From contig MHTV01000013.1 in NCBI GenBank assembly GCA_001823215.1, positions 1-34,966 of the forward strand: 34,966 nucleotides of DNA. The letters are read 5' to 3'. Below the pieces are notes generated by a model. The model worked only from the letters and a program-made list of their open reading frames with translations. It was not told the DNA's origin and did not search any database. The stretch is from Candidatus Wildermuthbacteria bacterium RIFCSPHIGHO2_02_FULL_45_25 (GTDB taxonomy: Bacteria; Patescibacteriota; Minisyncoccia; Minisyncoccales; UBA10102). The position numbers and the translations under genes are program-made. Of this stretch, positions 4,253 through 12,505 are shown piece by piece (positions within the stretch are counted from its first letter, which is position 1; each line of letters starts with the position of its first letter).

Positions 4253-4861
4253 ATGGAACAGCTTGTGAAATTTCTTACTGAACAAGGAATCCTGAAAAGT
4301 CCGCATATCATTGACGCTTTTCATACTGTTGACCGCAAAGATTTCGTATTGGCTGAATATCAAGAACAGGCGTATGAGGATTATCCCCTTCCCATTGGAC
4401 ATAGCCAAACAATCTCCCAACCCAGCACCGTGGGCTTTATGCTCGAACTTCTTGGACCAACGCAAGGAGAAAAGATTCTTGATATGGGATCGGGTTCGGG
4501 CTGGACAACTGCTCTTCTGGCACAAATCGCAGGCGATCAAGGAAAAGTTTTTGGCATGGAAATTATTCCGGAACTTGTGAGCTTTGGCCAGAAAAATCTC
4601 CAAAAATATCATTTTTCAAATGCCGCCATTCTGCAAGCCACAGACGTATTGGGATATCCAAGCCAAGCTCCATTTGATAAAATTCTGGTTTCCGCCGCCG
4701 CAAAAGAAATTCCCCAACAACTGATTGATCAGCTTGTCATTGGCGGCATCATGGTTATCCCGATTGAAAACGCGGTATGGAAAATAAAAAAAGTATCTCC
4801 CAAAGAAACCGAAACGCAAAAATTCGAAGGATTTGTTTTTGTTCCCCTTGTTACCAAATAA
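4253..4861 (+). CDS. pcm: Protein-L-isoaspartate O-methyltransferase
   Basis: 202 aa; PLPIGHSQTISQPSTVGFMLELL and ILDMGSGSGWTTALLA (SAM motif I). Confidence 0.9.
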   Translation: MEQLVKFLTEQGILKSPHIIDAFHTVDRKDFVLAEYQEQAYEDYPLPIGHSQTISQPSTVGFMLELLGPTQGEKILDMGSGSGWTTALLAQIAGDQGKVFGMEIIPELVSFGQKNLQKYHFSNAAILQATDVLGYPSQAPFDKILVSAAAKEIPQQLIDQLVIGGIMVIPIENAVWKIKKVSPKETETQKFEGFVFVPLVTK

Positions 4862-5750
4862 TGGGAACGCCAAAAAACTGCAGCACATATCCTGTCGTAG
4901 AATCTTTGTTATTGCTCACGGAAGCAGAATTAAAAGTTCCCATCGGGAAATTGCTTGTCGCTCCCATACTCTTTACCGCCGCCATCATCGCCACAAGAGA
5001 TTGAGGGGAATCCGCTTCCACAAGTCCTGCTAACTTTGGCTCCATAAATGTGAGCGAATAAGCTGACTGTTCATCAAGAGGTCTTGCCTGTTCTTCCGGA
5101 AGATAATGAGAAAAATCCACGCTCGCGATAATAAACGTATTTGGTGTGGCTATCGAAGCAAGAAATTCCCCAAAAGATTCCGCCATCTCATTGGTACTGC
5201 TCGAACGGAATACAATAGGGACAACTGTTGCCTTTGGGAAAAATTTACCGATCAAGAGCATCTGCGAGTGGATCGAATGATCGTTAAACGGAAGCTCGTC
5301 ATGAACGGCAAATGTTTGCTCCTCGAGTTTATTAAGTAATGCTAAATCCGGCTTCAATCTTCCAAATGGCGTCAGAAACGGAGCTTTTGAGAAACTCACA
5401 TCGCCTTCTCCTCTCTCAAAATGGTCAGGGCCTAGGATGATAAAAGTATCCACTTGTTTGCTTTTTTGCAGTTTGGCATAAAATTCAACAAGCAAGGGAA
5501 TTGCGGTTGGAATATGATGGGGAACAACTCCTCCCATAAGATATTGCGCGGCTATAGCTTCCACATTCTCAAATTTTTCCGTTTGAGTTTCAATGTATCC
5601 CGCCTCTTTAAAGTACGCAGATACATGCGTTACACCCGACCCCTCTTTCTTGCTGGGAGTAATATCGTTATGAGCGCCACTCAAGGAAAGCGCAATGCCC
5701 GCAAAAACAACAATACAAACAGTTTGGAAGATGACAATTTTTCTTTTCAT
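4851..5750 (-). CDS. MEMO1 / AmmeMemoRadiSam protein B family, with N-terminal signal/TM anchor
   Basis: 299 aa; MEMO motifs VPHHIPTAIPLL, ILGPDHF, NDHSIHSQMLL, IIASVDFSHYLP; N-terminal hydrophobic segment. Confidence 0.85.
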   Translation of the reverse strand: MKRKIVIFQTVCIVVFAGIALSLSGAHNDITPSKKEGSGVTHVSAYFKEAGYIETQTEKFENVEAIAAQYLMGGVVPHHIPTAIPLLVEFYAKLQKSKQVDTFIILGPDHFERGEGDVSFSKAPFLTPFGRLKPDLALLNKLEEQTFAVHDELPFNDHSIHSQMLLIGKFFPKATVVPIVFRSSSTNEMAESFGEFLASIATPNTFIIASVDFSHYLPEEQARPLDEQSAYSLTFMEPKLAGLVEADSPQSLVAMMAAVKSMGATSNFPMGTFNSASVSNNKDSTTGYVLQFFGVPIIW

Positions 5751-8700
5751 TCGCGAATGCTTATTCGATCCGGAGCAGACACATTCAAACTTTGGGAACT
5801 TTTTGCGGACTGAATCAATACGGGTTCCGCCTCATATTCGCCTTTTGTCACCACTCTCGCATAATAAGAAAGCGCGGAGCACGATCCGAATTTCGGATTC
5901 CAATCTAAAAAGGTAACGGTCTGATCTTCAATGCGAGCTGGATATCGCACGCAATCGCCCTCTTTGCTCTGTATAACGTTGAGCCGTGTTACCGCTCGCA
6001 ACCCACTGGGCAAATGATCTATAACTTGATAGCGCCCCTTCAAAGCCCCTAATCCAAATGAATCGGATAATTCAATTTTTACGATATCTCCTTCTTTGAA
6101 TTCTGTCGTTGGCATCCCGTTTACCACATATCTTCTCGTAACACGCAAAGATTCATCCATTGCAAGCTCTTCTGGATCAACCGCTTGGTCATACCTGCTC
6201 ACTACATCAACTCGTCCGCTCACATTCTCAAAACGCAAAGTTTGCAATTCTTCTGGCGCCATCGCGAGCCGCACGCTTTCGCCTGCTTTCAGAGTATGCG
6301 AATCCGCGCGATCCTTTGTGCGATAGGCAAAACTCACATCTTCTCCTTTCAAGCGAGGCAACACAGCTTTCAGATATCCAAGTAACTCAAAGTTAATGAG
6401 CTTCTCTTTGGGCTGCTGTTCAAAAACATACGAAGCCAAACCTTCAGCTTCCGGCTCTTGAAGACTGCCCGCCAATTGAGCGAGAAGCGCAGTGAGAATA
6501 ATATTCTCATCTGCTGACTTTAATTCCTCCACAAAAAAATAGGGAGATTTGCTCACAAGTTTTTGTTTCAGATGCTCTTGATAATATGCGCGCGCCTCTT
6601 CTTTTGCTCCTATCGTATCGAGCGCAAGAGCAATATACGCCTTGTCCATAAGAGTCAAATCCTTTTCATCCTTGATATGTTGCAAACTCACCAACACCGG
6701 TTCTTTCAGCGCAGCCAATCCATACAAAGCCAAAACTACTCGAGAGGCATCTGCCTTTCTATCATTCAACGATTGAGTGAAATAGGTTTTGAGCATTTCT
6801 CGGGAAATATCTATATTCTCTTCTTTCATGAGATCGGCGAATTGAGCGCTCACTCGCAAATCCTCATCGCTATAAGGAAGCAAGGCAATACCTCCGCTTC
6901 CCGGCTGATACGCGCGAAATTCAGGAGATTCATCCTCTTGTTCTTCGCCAAAGAATTTTTTGAGCAAAAGCCCGCCGAAATACCGGCTTGAAACCTGATC
7001 CACTCTTACTCCACCGCTTTGAGCAAGAGCAAGAAGCGGCCAATAGTAGATTGCTCTTTCTTGCGAAGTGAAGATCAACTGCGTAAATCCCTTTTCGTTC
7101 CCTTTGATTCCTTCAAGCGAAGAACTCACTTGATGGTATTCAGCCGCACTTTGAGTAAAGTAACTATCGAGCACTCTTATCTCTTTTACGATCGCGTCGC
7201 TGAACCCTCCCGCATTCGCTGACACTTTTATCTGATGAGTTCCGACCGAAAGCTGTCCCAGATTAAATTCTTCCGAGCGAGATCCGGATTTTTCGAGCAA
7301 CTTGAAAGGCAACGTATCACTTTCCACGCGATAGGTTACAGGATATTGAATTTCTTCCGTGCCGAATACTCGCGTTCGAATAATAAGTTTATCGCCATCC
7401 AGATACGTTCGATTCAACGATGCCTCCACAAAGAGAGGCAATCCAACAGGAACAAACTCAATTGTTTTGCCCGCGAGCCAATCTTTACTCACTGCCTGCA
7501 ATGTTACTCTCCACGACGTGATATTGTCTGGTAACGCAAAGGAAACATTCGCGCGGCCGTCAGAATCCGTCAAAATAGATTTATATATCGCGACATCCTC
7601 AAATTCTCCCCGCGCTTCGCCTCCTCCTTTCTCTTCGTTATGAACATACAAGGTATCCGCAAAATAGGTATGATTGCCTTCCACTTCAAAGTTATGCACG
7701 TTCACCCACTCATCCACTTTTTGGATAGAAGTTACCGCAACTTGCTTGCCCATGGAATTTTGGAGCATATCGCCGATCTTCAATTGGCCGGCTTTGTTCC
7801 ATTCTCCATTGATATACAAGCGATGATTTTCGGTTACCCGAAGCTTGTCATTCACAATTACATATCCCCTCACCAAATGAGAAGTTACCCTTGCCACTTT
7901 TGCCTCCACCAATGCGCTTGAATCTTCCGATTCTTTTGTGAGAATTGTTTCGCCCGCATGCACGTCTTCAATGGATTTGGATCCCAACGGTGTCAAAATC
8001 TGTGTCCCCGACAAGAAACATCCTCCAAGCTCCGCGCCAGATTCCAATGGAGTGAGATGGGAAGATCTCGTCAAAAGGGAAACATACACGTCATTGTATA
8101 ACGCGCTTGTAATATCTTTTTCTGTAGGATTTAAGGTAAAAACCGCTTCATCCAAAGCGCCGATATGCACTTGAGCTTCTTTGGGATTGCCGTTGGGATC
8201 GGTTACTTCAATATTCAGCCGCACTTCTTCTCCCGGCTTATACCGTTCTTTATCTTTGCTTACGTTAATCTGTAATCTTTTTTCTTCCGCCTCAAAAGAC
8301 AAATTCATCGGCCAACTGTCATGAAATCTCTTGCCGCTAAACCAAACCCCAATGACATTCACATTCGGGATATACATATCCTGGAACGTATCGGTATAAT
8401 TTGGCTCATCGGCAAGCTCATACGAATGCACTCCGCCTACCACTCTTATAAACAGGAAATCACGAGGAGATGATGCCACCGCATTGCCAGCGTTATCCTG
8501 AAGCTCAAGAGAAATTTTCTCTCCAAGCTTGTATTGCTTTTTCTCTTCGTCTCTATTCTTTAATGCTACTCCAGAGGTATCATACCCGGAGAACGGCGAA
8601 CGAGAATATCCAAACGCATAGCGCTGAACTTCCACTGCGCGACCATTCGTGTCTCGCGTCGTAAAAATAATTTTATAAGTTTTGTCTTCTTCGAGCTTCT

Positions 8701-11065
8701 GTTCAAAAGACGTTTCCCCTTTATCGTCTGTTGTTACACTCATTTGTCGTACGGTGTGTTCCTCGGTCGAATAGTCGTAGATAGGGTACGTTGCCTTATT
8801 AATAATGTCGTATCTCGTGCCTATCTGCGTTTTCTTGAAGATCACTTCTTTAACCTCAACATTCACCGCGTTATTCGCAACCGCGGCGCCCAAATAATTA
8901 TTTTGAACCCAAAACGGCTGACCCGCTTGAATCTTCTCTAATGTAACTTCGCGCAATTTCAGATTGAACTTAGAACTATTGCTCCCTACCTGCTGATCTG
9001 CTTGCAGATCCATATTCGGTCCAAACACAAGCACCGACACGCTTTGAGCAATTTCTCCTTCCTCTGCCAACACCGGCGAAACTGTTATACGAAGATACTT
9101 TGGCCAATACGCGCTTGCGATATAATCGGTTTTCACGGTAAAGTTTCCTTCTCCATTTTCATCGAGTTGTACGCGCGAGCTAAGCGGACCGTTCAAATAC
9201 CCCGCGTATTTCATTTGTCCATTGGAAACCGGCGTGCCGTCAAAAAATTCTCCGCGCACCTTCATATTCACGGAATCTCCCGCGAAGATCGCATTTTTAT
9301 CTGGCGTTAGCGTCAAGCGATACGCAGGCGCAACATACGTTTCCACGCTGACATTTTCAGAAACAATAATCTCATCCCCTCTCTTCATGCTCAATTGATA
9401 CAACCCCGGCTTTAATCCGGAAAAATTCATCTCGCCTGTGAGCGTGTAAAAATCGCTTACCTTTGCCTTTGTTTGCGCATACACCGTTACGTCATCTCTC
9501 GACGTGCCGTACCAAAAAGGAGTGGAAAGTTGCATTGTAATTTCTTCCCCTTTCACGTCCGAGCCGTTTCTTTGCTTCATCACGCCCCAAAACCTCAATG
9601 TGTCATCTGGCTGATACACCGTCTTATCCAAAGATAGATAATCCCACCATTGATCAGGAGAATTTATTTTATAAAACCCTCCATATCGAGATTCAATCGG
9701 GATTGCCAATTCCTTGCCCTGCGCTTTGACGATATAAAAAAATGCGGGCTCCTTCCAATAAGAGTAAGCGTCATCGCGAGCAGAAACAAGATCTGCGGGA
9801 GTTTCAAATTGAGCTACTCCATCGGCATTTGTCTTTCCAATTTCACGACCCTCAAAACTTACATGGGCATCGGCTTCTCTCTGCCCTCGTATCAATGAAC
9901 GCAACCAAATCAAACTTTGACTTCCGCTTACCGCCACATAGTTTGAAAAATTCGTGACCTGAAACCACGCCTGATGTGGTTTTTTATCCACTGTTATCGT
10001 TAGAACATAATATCCTTCATCAAACTTTTGCGGAATTCGAATAAACTTCACGTCCAACTGATTTTCCATGGAAACATTGCTTTCAAAAATTTTCTTTTCG
10101 TCCGGAGCTTCATACGGAACAAACCGATTAAATCGGGACCAGTTTGTTTGGAATCGCAAAGAACTTTTATACGACTCGACAAATTGGTTCACGGTATCAA
10201 AACGAGCTACATTCACTGATAATTGAGAAGCGTTCGGGACGTTGGAGGCATATACGGCAAACGCTGGTTCATTTGCCAAAGGAAATTCCCAAAACGTTTT
10301 ATCGAAGCCAAACTGCGCCATGGAATAACTCGGGCTTTCTGCTTCAGTTTCAAATTGAAAGACGTGATTTTCAGATAATGCGTCTTCACTACCTTCACTC
10401 TTCAGCCCCTTTTTCACGGTAACCGTGTATACTTTTTGAGGATCCAACGGACGGTTGGGAATAAACACGAGTACATTTCTGTGCTGTTCAAACTTTCCCT
10501 GAATTTGGGGAAAAAATTCCACGTAATCCTGCGGATGAATCAGCTTCTCTCGGTTAAACGTTATCTCAATGCCAGTTGGAACGGAAACTCCAGACCCCTT
10601 GTCTCGCGGAAGCGTTGAGATAACCTGAAAAGGAGCTTTCACCTGATACGCCCAGCTATATGTTTTTTCCGAGATAGGACTCTCGTCAATTTTAAACGTT
10701 ACAATCGCGTTCTCTGGCAGCTTCTCTTTCGGCTTAATCTCAAAACCTCCCAAAACCTTCTTAACCTCTATTTTCACATCGGGATCCAAGGATAAATATC
10801 TCTCAACTGCGCTCTCATCAATATCCGCCGCACTCTTTAAGGTAAAGGTTGTGGAAGGATGAATGCCAGCCGCATCCGCGACATCGGCACGAAGCTCGAA
10901 CTGCGAAAACGCGACTTTTTCTTTTTTTACAGCGCCAGACAATGCCAAACCTGCCCCGACAATCAGCGCAAAAGCAATCAGAACATTGAGATGTGGCCGA
11001 TCTTTAAAAAAATCGAAAATTTTTCTCATAGTTGAAACAGCAAAAGGATGACATATCTTCATCAT
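5747..11065 (-). CDS. Alpha-2-macroglobulin-family protein with embedded Hint/intein-like domain
   Basis: 1772 aa; N-terminal TM segment (LNVLIAFALIVGAGLALSGA), MG-type repeats, A2M core GALDEAVFTL...YKSILTDSDGRANVSFALPDNITSWRVTLQAVSKDWLAG, C-terminal receptor-like domain. Probable true start is the internal ATG at 11029 (MRKIFDFF). Confidence 0.92.
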   Translation of the reverse strand: MMKICHPFAVSTMRKIFDFFKDRPHLNVLIAFALIVGAGLALSGAVKKEKVAFSQFELRADVADAAGIHPSTTFTLKSAADIDESAVERYLSLDPDVKIEVKKVLGGFEIKPKEKLPENAIVTFKIDESPISEKTYSWAYQVKAPFQVISTLPRDKGSGVSVPTGIEITFNREKLIHPQDYVEFFPQIQGKFEQHRNVLVFIPNRPLDPQKVYTVTVKKGLKSEGSEDALSENHVFQFETEAESPSYSMAQFGFDKTFWEFPLANEPAFAVYASNVPNASQLSVNVARFDTVNQFVESYKSSLRFQTNWSRFNRFVPYEAPDEKKIFESNVSMENQLDVKFIRIPQKFDEGYYVLTITVDKKPHQAWFQVTNFSNYVAVSGSQSLIWLRSLIRGQREADAHVSFEGREIGKTNADGVAQFETPADLVSARDDAYSYWKEPAFFYIVKAQGKELAIPIESRYGGFYKINSPDQWWDYLSLDKTVYQPDDTLRFWGVMKQRNGSDVKGEEITMQLSTPFWYGTSRDDVTVYAQTKAKVSDFYTLTGEMNFSGLKPGLYQLSMKRGDEIIVSENVSVETYVAPAYRLTLTPDKNAIFAGDSVNMKVRGEFFDGTPVSNGQMKYAGYLNGPLSSRVQLDENGEGNFTVKTDYIASAYWPKYLRITVSPVLAEEGEIAQSVSVLVFGPNMDLQADQQVGSNSSKFNLKLREVTLEKIQAGQPFWVQNNYLGAAVANNAVNVEVKEVIFKKTQIGTRYDIINKATYPIYDYSTEEHTVRQMSVTTDDKGETSFEQKLEEDKTYKIIFTTRDTNGRAVEVQRYAFGYSRSPFSGYDTSGVALKNRDEEKKQYKLGEKISLELQDNAGNAVASSPRDFLFIRVVGGVHSYELADEPNYTDTFQDMYIPNVNVIGVWFSGKRFHDSWPMNLSFEAEEKRLQINVSKDKERYKPGEEVRLNIEVTDPNGNPKEAQVHIGALDEAVFTLNPTEKDITSALYNDVYVSLLTRSSHLTPLESGAELGGCFLSGTQILTPLGSKSIEDVHAGETILTKESEDSSALVEAKVARVTSHLVRGYVIVNDKLRVTENHRLYINGEWNKAGQLKIGDMLQNSMGKQVAVTSIQKVDEWVNVHNFEVEGNHTYFADTLYVHNEEKGGGEARGEFEDVAIYKSILTDSDGRANVSFALPDNITSWRVTLQAVSKDWLAGKTIEFVPVGLPLFVEASLNRTYLDGDKLIIRTRVFGTEEIQYPVTYRVESDTLPFKLLEKSGSRSEEFNLGQLSVGTHQIKVSANAGGFSDAIVKEIRVLDSYFTQSAAEYHQVSSSLEGIKGNEKGFTQLIFTSQERAIYYWPLLALAQSGGVRVDQVSSRYFGGLLLKKFFGEEQEDESPEFRAYQPGSGGIALLPYSDEDLRVSAQFADLMKEENIDISREMLKTYFTQSLNDRKADASRVVLALYGLAALKEPVLVSLQHIKDEKDLTLMDKAYIALALDTIGAKEEARAYYQEHLKQKLVSKSPYFFVEELKSADENIILTALLAQLAGSLQEPEAEGLASYVFEQQPKEKLINFELLGYLKAVLPRLKGEDVSFAYRTKDRADSHTLKAGESVRLAMAPEELQTLRFENVSGRVDVVSRYDQAVDPEELAMDESLRVTRRYVVNGMPTTEFKEGDIVKIELSDSFGLGALKGRYQVIDHLPSGLRAVTRLNVIQSKEGDCVRYPARIEDQTVTFLDWNPKFGSCSALSYYARVVTKGEYEAEPVLIQSAKSSQSLNVSAPDRISIRE
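7637..8020 (-). other. Hint / bacterial intein-like (BIL, A-type-like) domain within the A2M CDS (residues ~1016-1143)
   Basis: 128 codons: CFLSGTQILTPLGSKSIEDVHAGETILTKE (block A) ... LRVTENHRLYINGEW (block B TxxH) ... HNFEVEGNHTYFADTLYVHN (blocks F/G); followed by Glu rather than Cys/Ser/Thr. Confidence 0.88.
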
Positions 11066-11125: not shown

Positions 11126-12505
11126 TCATTTCTCCATAGAAACTACTTTCACCTGCGTAAGCTCGTGGAATCCGAATTTCCCATGTTCTCGGCCAATGCC
11201 TGATTTCTTATATCCGCCGAACGGATTGCATGGCTTTACATAGCTGATATTGTTTATGCTCACCATTCCAGATTGAAGTTGAGATGCAACTCGCAGAGCG
11301 GTTTCTTTGTTTGAGGTGAACACATACGCGCCAAGCCCGTACGCAGTATCGTTTGCCAGCTCAATAGCTTCTTCTTCGGTCTTAAACGAAACAAGAGGAA
11401 GCACAGGCCCAAACACTTCTTCTTTCCATACTCTCATATCCTTGGTTATCTGCGTAAGCAATGTTGGCTCGTAAAAAGCTCCTCCAAGATTTTCGAGCCG
11501 ATGCCCTCCAATAACTATCTCTGCTTTCTTGTCTAAAGCGTCTTTCACTTGTGCCTCCAGTAACTCAAGTTGACGGCTTGCCACCAACGGGCCAATATCC
11601 GTACTTTCTTCTTCGGGGTTGCCGACTTTCACCGATTTGAGTTTATTTTTCAGTTTCTCCACTACTTCTTCAAATCTGCTTTCATGAACCAACAAGCGTT
11701 TCATTGCGTCGCACATCTGGCCGCAATTGGTAAACCGACTCGCATACATTGTTTCTAGCACATCATCCAGTTTGGCGTCTTCAAAGATTATTCCCGGAGC
11801 TGAACCTCCCAATTCCATCACGATTTTCATCATCCGCTCTGCGTCTGCCACTACTTTATACAGAGCATGGCCAACTTTTGTGCTTCCGGTAAAACTGATA
11901 AGATCAATACTTTCGCGAGCAAGCATATTACCAATATCCCCTCCGCCGTATACTTCCGAAAATACCCCATCTGGCAAACCTGCTTGCGCGATAATTTCCT
12001 CAATCAGTTTTCCGCACAGAGCAGTTTCTTGCGAATCCTTAAAAACAATCGTATTGCCGACAATAAGATTTTGCCCCGCTCCCCAAACAAAATTAGATAA
12101 AGGAAAATTCCACGGCACAATCACAGCCACCACGCCAATTGGTTCGTAGAAAATCTGATCAATGCTTTTTTCATCCTCATAAGTGATTTCCGGAGACAAA
12201 TAGTTTTCCGCGTGTTCCAAATACCACTGGAAGTAAGAGATCGCATCTTTCACGTCAGCTCTGCTTTGAGAAATAGGCATACCCATTTCTCTCGTTGTCA
12301 AAAGCGCAAAATCTTCTTGTCGTTGAGAGAATCCATCAACAACTTTTTTGAGTAATTCCACCCTCTTTTGAACTCCAAGCGCGCTCCATCCGGGAAATGC
12401 TCTTCTTGCCCGCGCTACTTTCTCGTGAATCTCTTTCTGACTTGAAACAGCGACCTCGCCGAGAACTTCATTATTGGCTGGATTGATTGAGATTATTGTA
12501 TCCAT
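11126..12505 (-). CDS. NAD(P)-dependent aldehyde dehydrogenase (succinate-semialdehyde dehydrogenase-like)
   Basis: 459 aa; VPWNFPLSN, SFTGSTKVG, MELGGSAPGIIFED, catalytic-Cys region FTNCGQMCDAMKRLLV, NPFGGYKKSGIGREHG. Confidence 0.92.
   Translation of the reverse strand: MDTIISINPANNEVLGEVAVSSQKEIHEKVARARRAFPGWSALGVQKRVELLKKVVDGFSQRQEDFALLTTREMGMPISQSRADVKDAISYFQWYLEHAENYLSPEITYEDEKSIDQIFYEPIGVVAVIVPWNFPLSNFVWGAGQNLIVGNTIVFKDSQETALCGKLIEEIIAQAGLPDGVFSEVYGGGDIGNMLARESIDLISFTGSTKVGHALYKVVADAERMMKIVMELGGSAPGIIFEDAKLDDVLETMYASRFTNCGQMCDAMKRLLVHESRFEEVVEKLKNKLKSVKVGNPEEESTDIGPLVASRQLELLEAQVKDALDKKAEIVIGGHRLENLGGAFYEPTLLTQITKDMRVWKEEVFGPVLPLVSFKTEEEAIELANDTAYGLGAYVFTSNKETALRVASQLQSGMVSINNISYVKPCNPFGGYKKSGIGREHGKFGFHELTQVKVVSMEK

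Follow-up and report, generated by a model that had tools for sequence, protein, structure and literature searches.

An alpha-2-macroglobulin with a bait-site Hint domain and an exported MEMO-fold protein form a co-inherited gene pair in Patescibacteria

Introduction

The alpha-2-macroglobulin (A2M) of Escherichia coli, ECAM (YfhM), is linked with the peptidoglycan synthase PBP1C, and a role in envelope repair has been proposed (PMC4498604). A2Ms are triggered, changing conformation, by discontinuity of the bait (PMC9352918). MEMO proteins are conserved from archaea to humans and their primary molecular function is still unknown; MEMO1 binds Fe or Cu via H49, H81 and C244, of which C244 takes the position of the Glu of extradiol dioxygenases (PMC11081632). 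In type A bacterial intein-like (BIL) domains, whose last two residues are His-Asn, the first residue forms a thioester and the chain is cut at the Asn; cleavage is the main outcome, although religation also occurs to some extent (PMC4031507). Here we describe a 34,966-nucleotide stretch of DNA (the window; contig MHTV01000013.1) from Candidatus Wildermuthbacteria bacterium RIFCSPHIGHO2_02_FULL_45_25, a member of the Patescibacteria, that encodes a membrane-anchored A2M carrying a Hint domain at its bait site and, immediately downstream, an exported MEMO-fold protein.

A life on the surface of other cells is assumed for many Patescibacteria, and their envelope systems are little known. In the open-access literature, with subscription papers outside the search, no paper brought together intein-like domains and bait regions. 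Likewise, no open-access paper linked an A2M with a MEMO protein, and A2M in a predator of the candidate phyla radiation was mentioned only generally. The component families are all known; their combination, the Hint domain at the bait site and the MEMO branch with a Cys-to-Asp change appear to be new.

Results

The A2M gene (5747..11065, minus strand) was assigned from the open reading frame listing and Pfam to a membrane-anchored bacterial alpha-2-macroglobulin of 1772 aa without the thioester motif. Its likely start is Met13 (...STMRKIFDFF), 12 codons inside the open frame. The MEMO gene (4851..5750, minus strand) encodes a 299 aa MEMO-family protein with an N-terminal membrane/signal helix. 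The preliminary description of this DNA had the A2M stop and the MEMO start overlapping as ATGA, and the open reading frame coordinates bear this out (5747..5750, minus strand; A2M TGA 5749-5747, MEMO ATG 5750-5748). Both proteins have a hydrophobic N-terminal segment; the one claimed earlier for MEMO was confirmed at residues 5-21 (Kyte-Doolittle mean 2.69).

Conservation of the pair was surveyed across about 85 Patescibacteria A2Ms. Sixty relatives, including 24 genomes of the window's own family, were searched with both A2M and MEMO, and a class-level sample of 286 genomes and a phylum-level sample of 380 were added, with A2Ms from 47 further genomes. An alignment-based scan of 84,980 species gave 22 further loci; its search pattern was the end of Hint, which biases it toward Hint-positive loci. 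Every record title that named a taxon among these 22 was that of a Patescibacteria lineage. A contig scan with a single protein as query found no relative, whereas the alignment-based scan did.

With duplicates removed, a MEMO gene neighbored 36 of the surveyed A2Ms, and in 35 cases lay directly downstream on the same strand. Among these 35, 32 were within 30 bp and 20 overlapped the A2M gene, 8 of them as the 4-bp ATGA. The gene order was kept even between pairs whose MEMO proteins share only 20-30% identity. The sole locus with MEMO upstream (L143:3500-4570) had the order MEMO, extracytoplasmic function (ECF) sigma factor, A2M-Hint. A2M was present in 24/286 class-level genomes; all 9 Hint-bearing A2Ms of that sample were immediately followed by MEMO, and no MEMO was found in any fetched neighborhood of its Hint-free A2Ms.

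To place these genes, an A2M tree was built from 84 rows and 721 columns, Hint excluded. In it, 44 thioester-less A2Ms, the window's among them, formed one fully supported group. MEMO lay beside 30 of the 42 scorable members of this clade, compared with 5 of 37 other A2Ms, and was the only recurrent downstream partner found in the clade. In samples that were not picked by Hint, the window's clade had MEMO beside 7/8 (class) and 11/21 (phylum) of its A2Ms. A second A2M group, including the thioester-bearing L053, L054, L142 and L143, likewise had Hint and MEMO.

Consistent with common inheritance, A2M and MEMO tree distances were correlated (Mantel r 0.63; none of 9999 permutations as high), a value in which species-tree kinship is left in. 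The same sub-groups, one of them an 8-member clade, appeared in both trees, and the window's nearest relative was L063 for A2M and MEMO alike (58% and 62% identity, respectively). Because the pair is inherited together, A2M and MEMO very probably constitute one previously unnoticed cell-surface system, found in several branches of the Patescibacteria.

The Hint domain behaved differently. It was present in 31 of the 44 clade members, with a history that followed the A2M flanks within the clade (Mantel r 0.70; 0/4999 permutations), and its distribution was patchy, with 8 changes on the A2M tree. Within the clade 22 A2Ms had both Hint and MEMO, 8 had Hint only, 8 had MEMO only and 4 had neither (p = 0.7), and an independent-pairs comparison was likewise not significant. 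The class sample (9/9) had suggested that Hint is an obligate companion of MEMO; the phylum sample (8/16 scorable) and the within-clade test ruled this out. The conserved unit is thus A2M plus MEMO, with Hint frequent yet separable.

A more distant type of Hint (E about 1e-13 to 1e-16) was seen in the bait of two A2Ms outside the main clade (L153 and L157), which suggests that a bait-site Hint was gained more than once. At L146, a Hint-bearing A2M is followed after 2 bp by a DUF1287 gene (L146:6191-6841) in place of MEMO, a possible partner swap.

The macroglobulin and BRD domains of bacterial alpha-2-macroglobulin were found in the window protein by both Pfam and fold: A2M_BRD (3.5e-10), A2M (PF00207; 2.4e-9), Big_5 (4.5e-9) and bMG10 (0.005). 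A2M_BRD, A2M and PT-HINT all exceeded the cut-off, and MG2 (2.8e-7) fell just under it. The Hint domain (aa 1015-1143; 7637..8023, minus strand; PT-HINT 1.9e-12) is flanked by A2M_BRD (841-978) and by the post-bait macroglobulin domain that forms the A2M PF00207 core (aa 1160-1240; 7346..7588, minus strand; ...SFALPDNITSWRV), which is the site of the bait region. Hint-free relatives retain the flanks (GGAEMGG...VRRNF), as in ...GGAEMGGSSGGDDVVRRNF (L170). A structure model covering aa 799-1254 (mean predicted local distance difference test score, pLDDT, 83; predicted template-modeling score 0.53) showed Hint well ordered between two low-confidence, disordered linkers, and the macroglobulin part of the A2M model gave Foldseek matches to CD109, A2M and complement.

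The closest described relative of the Hint domain is the solved type A BIL domain of Clostridium thermocellum (PDB 2LWY), which it matched by sequence (E 6e-10) and by fold (template-modeling score, TM, 0.85, target-normalized); the fold also matched the gp41-1 intein (TM 0.82, Foldseek). Shared with type A domains are Cys1 (C1016), the TxxH motif (T1078/H1081), the C-terminal His-Asn (H1142-N1143) and a non-nucleophilic +1 residue, here Glu. What sets the window's domain apart is its location inside an A2M bait region, where it is kept across lineages. Cys1, the Thr and His of TxxH and the final His-Asn were invariant in 39/39 Hint A2Ms. The +1 residue was Glu in 15, Asp in 10, Ala in 6, Gln in 5, Asn in 2 and Lys in 1, and Cys, Ser or Thr in none of the 39. 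The window Hint lacks the Cys, Ser or Thr at +1 by which a classical intein is recognized.

At the thioester site the window has GGVRVDQ in place of the canonical PYGCxEQ, and the internal thioester CxEQ was missing in 44/44 members of its clade. Canonical Patescibacteria A2Ms keep both the thioester and a glycine-rich bait. Because Hint fills the bait position and the thioester is gone, the window A2M is no standard protease trap.

The MEMO protein scored well above the cut-offs of both family profiles (Pfam Memo PF01875, 3.3e-24, 86 bits, cut-off 27; TIGR04336, 3.3e-29, 102 bits, cut-off 26). Its AlphaFold2 model (pLDDT 94.6) had MEMO1 as the best Foldseek match (E 8e-17, TM 0.72), followed by LigB-type dioxygenases. 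The predicted metal site comprises H78, H110 and D247, with H158, D212 and H215 nearby. In a residue survey of 37 sequences (36 linked to A2Ms or to the A2M clade, plus L046), H78, H110, H158, D212 and H215 were invariant in 37/37; the preliminary description had called for a check of the metal ligands, and the metal-site histidines were lost in none of the surveyed copies. H78 and H110 align with H49 and H81 of human MEMO1. The position of MEMO1 C244 was Asp in 37/37 and Cys in 3/3 canonical Patescibacteria MEMOs. Asp also fell on C244 in a separate, larger profile alignment; a first, smaller MEMO1 alignment had stopped short of that position.

Compared with human MEMO1 (PDB 7KQ8/7L5C/3BCZ) and with protein B of the AmmeMemoRadiSam system (TIGR04336, PF01875), the window MEMO shares the fold, the two ligand histidines and H158, D212 and H215, but is exported, has Asp for the ligand Cys, and comes from a genome with neither AMMECR1 nor radical SAM partner. 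With the LigB-type class II extradiol dioxygenases (DesB, 2-aminophenol-1,6-dioxygenase) it shares the fold (E 1e-7 to 1e-4) and a 2-His-1-carboxylate sequence pattern, but it has Asp for Glu and about 9-14% identity, and catechol chemistry is without support. By its residues, the window protein is a MEMO-fold relative and no canonical MEMO, and the exported branch carries a predicted 2-His-1-carboxylate site. A hydrophobic N-terminal export segment was found in 35 of the 37 A2M-linked MEMO entries, one entry being a duplicate locus. The two exceptions lacked the segment in their called frames; one of them, L176, overlaps its A2M by 316 bp, which suggests a miscalled start.

Absence of AMMECR1 and radical SAM genes, noted earlier for the DNA in view, holds for the whole assembly of the window's genome (G000; 97% complete; searched family by family). 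AMMECR1 and the AmmeMemoRadiSam radical SAM protein were absent from 6 of the 9 pair genomes, the window's included. In the remaining 3 they lay on contigs other than that of the A2M, with a second MEMO beside the radical SAM gene. Membership in an AmmeMemoRadiSam system was ruled out, since both partners are absent here and elsewhere occupy separate loci with a second MEMO. In a side observation, a canonical MEMO fused to AMMECR1 had an N-terminal hydrophobic helix (L048:9266-10867); an exported AmmeMemo protein may exist.

A different enzyme domain did accompany MEMO. The metallophosphoesterase-like CapA/PGA_cap domain (PF09587; PDB 8GQ9 series) was fused at the C-terminus of 10/36 A2M-linked MEMOs. 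The window's MEMO gene has no such domain; instead, its genome encodes CapA once, as a separate membrane-anchored protein (L202:1294-2352; G000:C30:6485-7213) that is 44-51% identical to the eight closest MEMO-fused CapA domains. All nine class-sample genomes with the pair had CapA (4 fused, 5 separate) compared with 117/286 overall, a modest line of evidence. CapA is probably a third component of the system.

Fifteen related A2Ms had an ECF sigma factor gene directly upstream, with Sigma70_r2 and r4 in 15/15 (L041, L071, L072, L080, L081, L143, L170, L171, L175, L176, L177, L178, L180, L181 and L186). In 14/15 the two genes were within about 20 bp or overlapped. The sigma-linked A2Ms have a cytosolic N-terminal tail ahead of a single membrane helix, which suggests that sigma factor and A2M are a sensor pair, and a MEMO neighbor was found at 8/15 of these loci.

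Discussion

The preliminary description had proposed a two-component extracytoplasmic system of A2M scaffold and MEMO-fold enzyme. That A2M and an exported MEMO-fold protein form a genetic unit stands; to this must be added that the MEMO1 metal site is altered (Cys to Asp), that CapA is probably a third component and that the A2M is no standard protease trap. Like ECAM with PBP1C, the locus pairs a large membrane-anchored A2M with an exported envelope protein in an operon; it differs in the lost thioester, the Hint at the bait and a MEMO(-CapA) partner. Ordinary thioester A2Ms of the same class mostly had a PBP1C-like gene (called by sequence inspection) following or flanking them and no MEMO, and the window's A2M, with MEMO downstream and an aldehyde dehydrogenase gene upstream, has no pbpC linkage.

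We favor, with confidence that is evenly divided, a model in which an exported A2M scaffold cuts its own bait and has as its partner in the envelope a metal-enzyme module of MEMO and CapA. The two co-inherited genes would be co-transcribed as a cell-envelope system, with MEMO(-CapA) taking the place that PBP1C holds beside an ordinary bacterial A2M. Once the A2M is exported, Hint would break its chain at the bait, with C1016 undergoing an N-S acyl shift and N1143 cyclizing. Since the +1 residue is never Cys, Ser or Thr, cleavage, thioester ligation to another amine or type A religation would be expected over classical splicing. Bait discontinuity switches A2M conformation, and self-cutting would thus open or arm the scaffold without a foreign protease; this trigger is proposed from BIL chemistry together with the bait-discontinuity triggering of A2Ms. 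With less certainty, the 2-His-1-carboxylate site of MEMO may hold Fe(II) or a metal like it, and MEMO, with a CapA-type metallophosphoesterase, may act on an envelope peptide or polymer.

Several points weigh against this model. Type A BIL domains can religate, which would leave the bait continuous, and support for the mechanism comes from sequence and predicted structures. As Hint and MEMO each occur without the other in 8 clade A2Ms, Hint processing is not needed for the MEMO partnership. Four Hint A2Ms (L053, L054, L142 and L143) retain YGCxEQ, which weakens the idea that Hint substitutes for the lost thioester. The co-occurrence of CapA may partly be a genome-size effect, and species kinship may contribute to the agreement of the A2M and MEMO trees as calculated. 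The neighborhood survey advocated in the preliminary description found A2M-MEMO adjacency kept across many Patescibacteria lineages and co-inherited, but the 24 genomes sampled from the window's own family had neither A2M nor MEMO; the system is patchy.

If the favored model holds, a macroglobulin with a self-cutting bait decouples bait cleavage from the encounter with a protease and would put ideas about the role of bacterial macroglobulins to the test, especially as other A2Ms of the clade lie beside ECF sigma genes. For MEMO proteins, a concrete route to function is offered by this exported branch, with its constant genetic partner, its fusion to an enzyme domain and the natural replacement of Cys by Asp in its metal site. 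More tentatively, the clade could hold macroglobulins of a new class, in which the built-in Hint would take over the triggering from a foreign protease and its chemistry would replace that of the lost thioester; such an exported machine would include a dioxygenase-like 2-His-1-carboxylate MEMO and a CapA phosphoesterase, and in some lineages would be wired to gene expression through the neighboring ECF sigma factor.

The sigma-linked loci raise the main, though doubtful, alternative of a trans-envelope switch with the A2M as its extracytoplasmic sensor, in which cleavage at the bait or Hint would free an ECF sigma factor held by the cytosolic N-terminal tail, MEMO would be a co-regulated effector, and the sigma factor would have been lost in the window's lineage. 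The 15 loci with an ECF sigma gene directly upstream of a tailed A2M, 8 of them also with MEMO, speak for such a switch. Pfam recognized no anti-sigma domain in those tails, however, and a sigma gene adjoining an operon can reflect plain autoregulation. The window's locus has no ECF sigma gene; an aldehyde dehydrogenase gene lies upstream and its A2M has only a short tail.

It is unlikely that MEMO and A2M are adjacent merely as general envelope housekeeping genes with no common pathway. Such an arrangement would accommodate the 8 Hint-positive clade A2Ms without MEMO and the MEMO-CapA fusions without an adjacent A2M (L046 in G025, L097, L100, L102, L104, L106 and L107), which indicate that MEMO-CapA is an independent module. 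Mere neighborhood is poorly reconciled with a gene order kept at 20-30% MEMO identity, the frequent overlaps, the parallel trees and the lack of any other recurrent downstream partner in the clade.

We give a similarly low probability to protease defense, in which the A2M would still bait foreign proteases, Hint would be a structured insert and MEMO would repair or modify the envelope, in line with the proposal made for ECAM with PBP1C (PMC4498604). The overall A2M architecture and fold, and the thioester and glycine-rich bait of canonical Patescibacteria A2Ms, would agree with this, but the loss of the thioester throughout the clade would not, and the invariant catalytic residues of Hint would be needless in a passive insert. 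Classical trapping is unlikely because the thioester is gone and a self-cutting domain is invariant. Least probable is a selfish, intein-like element that entered the A2M gene by chance, unrelated to A2M function or MEMO: the patchy distribution and the presence of Hint in two distant A2M groups would suit it, but the 129 aa domain has no homing endonuclease, its +1 residues make classical splicing impossible so that a selfish copy would be prone to disrupting the protein it sits in, its history is common with that of the flanks, and the site is always the same functional one.

Upstream of the A2M and in the same direction lies the aldehyde dehydrogenase gene (11126..12505, minus strand; Pfam Aldedh 4.5e-149). 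The gap to the A2M gene is 60 bp and the two are possibly co-transcribed; genes upstream of the A2M vary across loci and the aldehyde dehydrogenase is no conserved partner. On the other side, a protein-L-isoaspartate methyltransferase gene (4253-4861, plus strand) converges with MEMO, the two sharing 11 bp at the 3' end of MEMO. This proximity may be meaningful, given that Asn cyclization by Hint would yield a succinimide, or it may be a coincidence.

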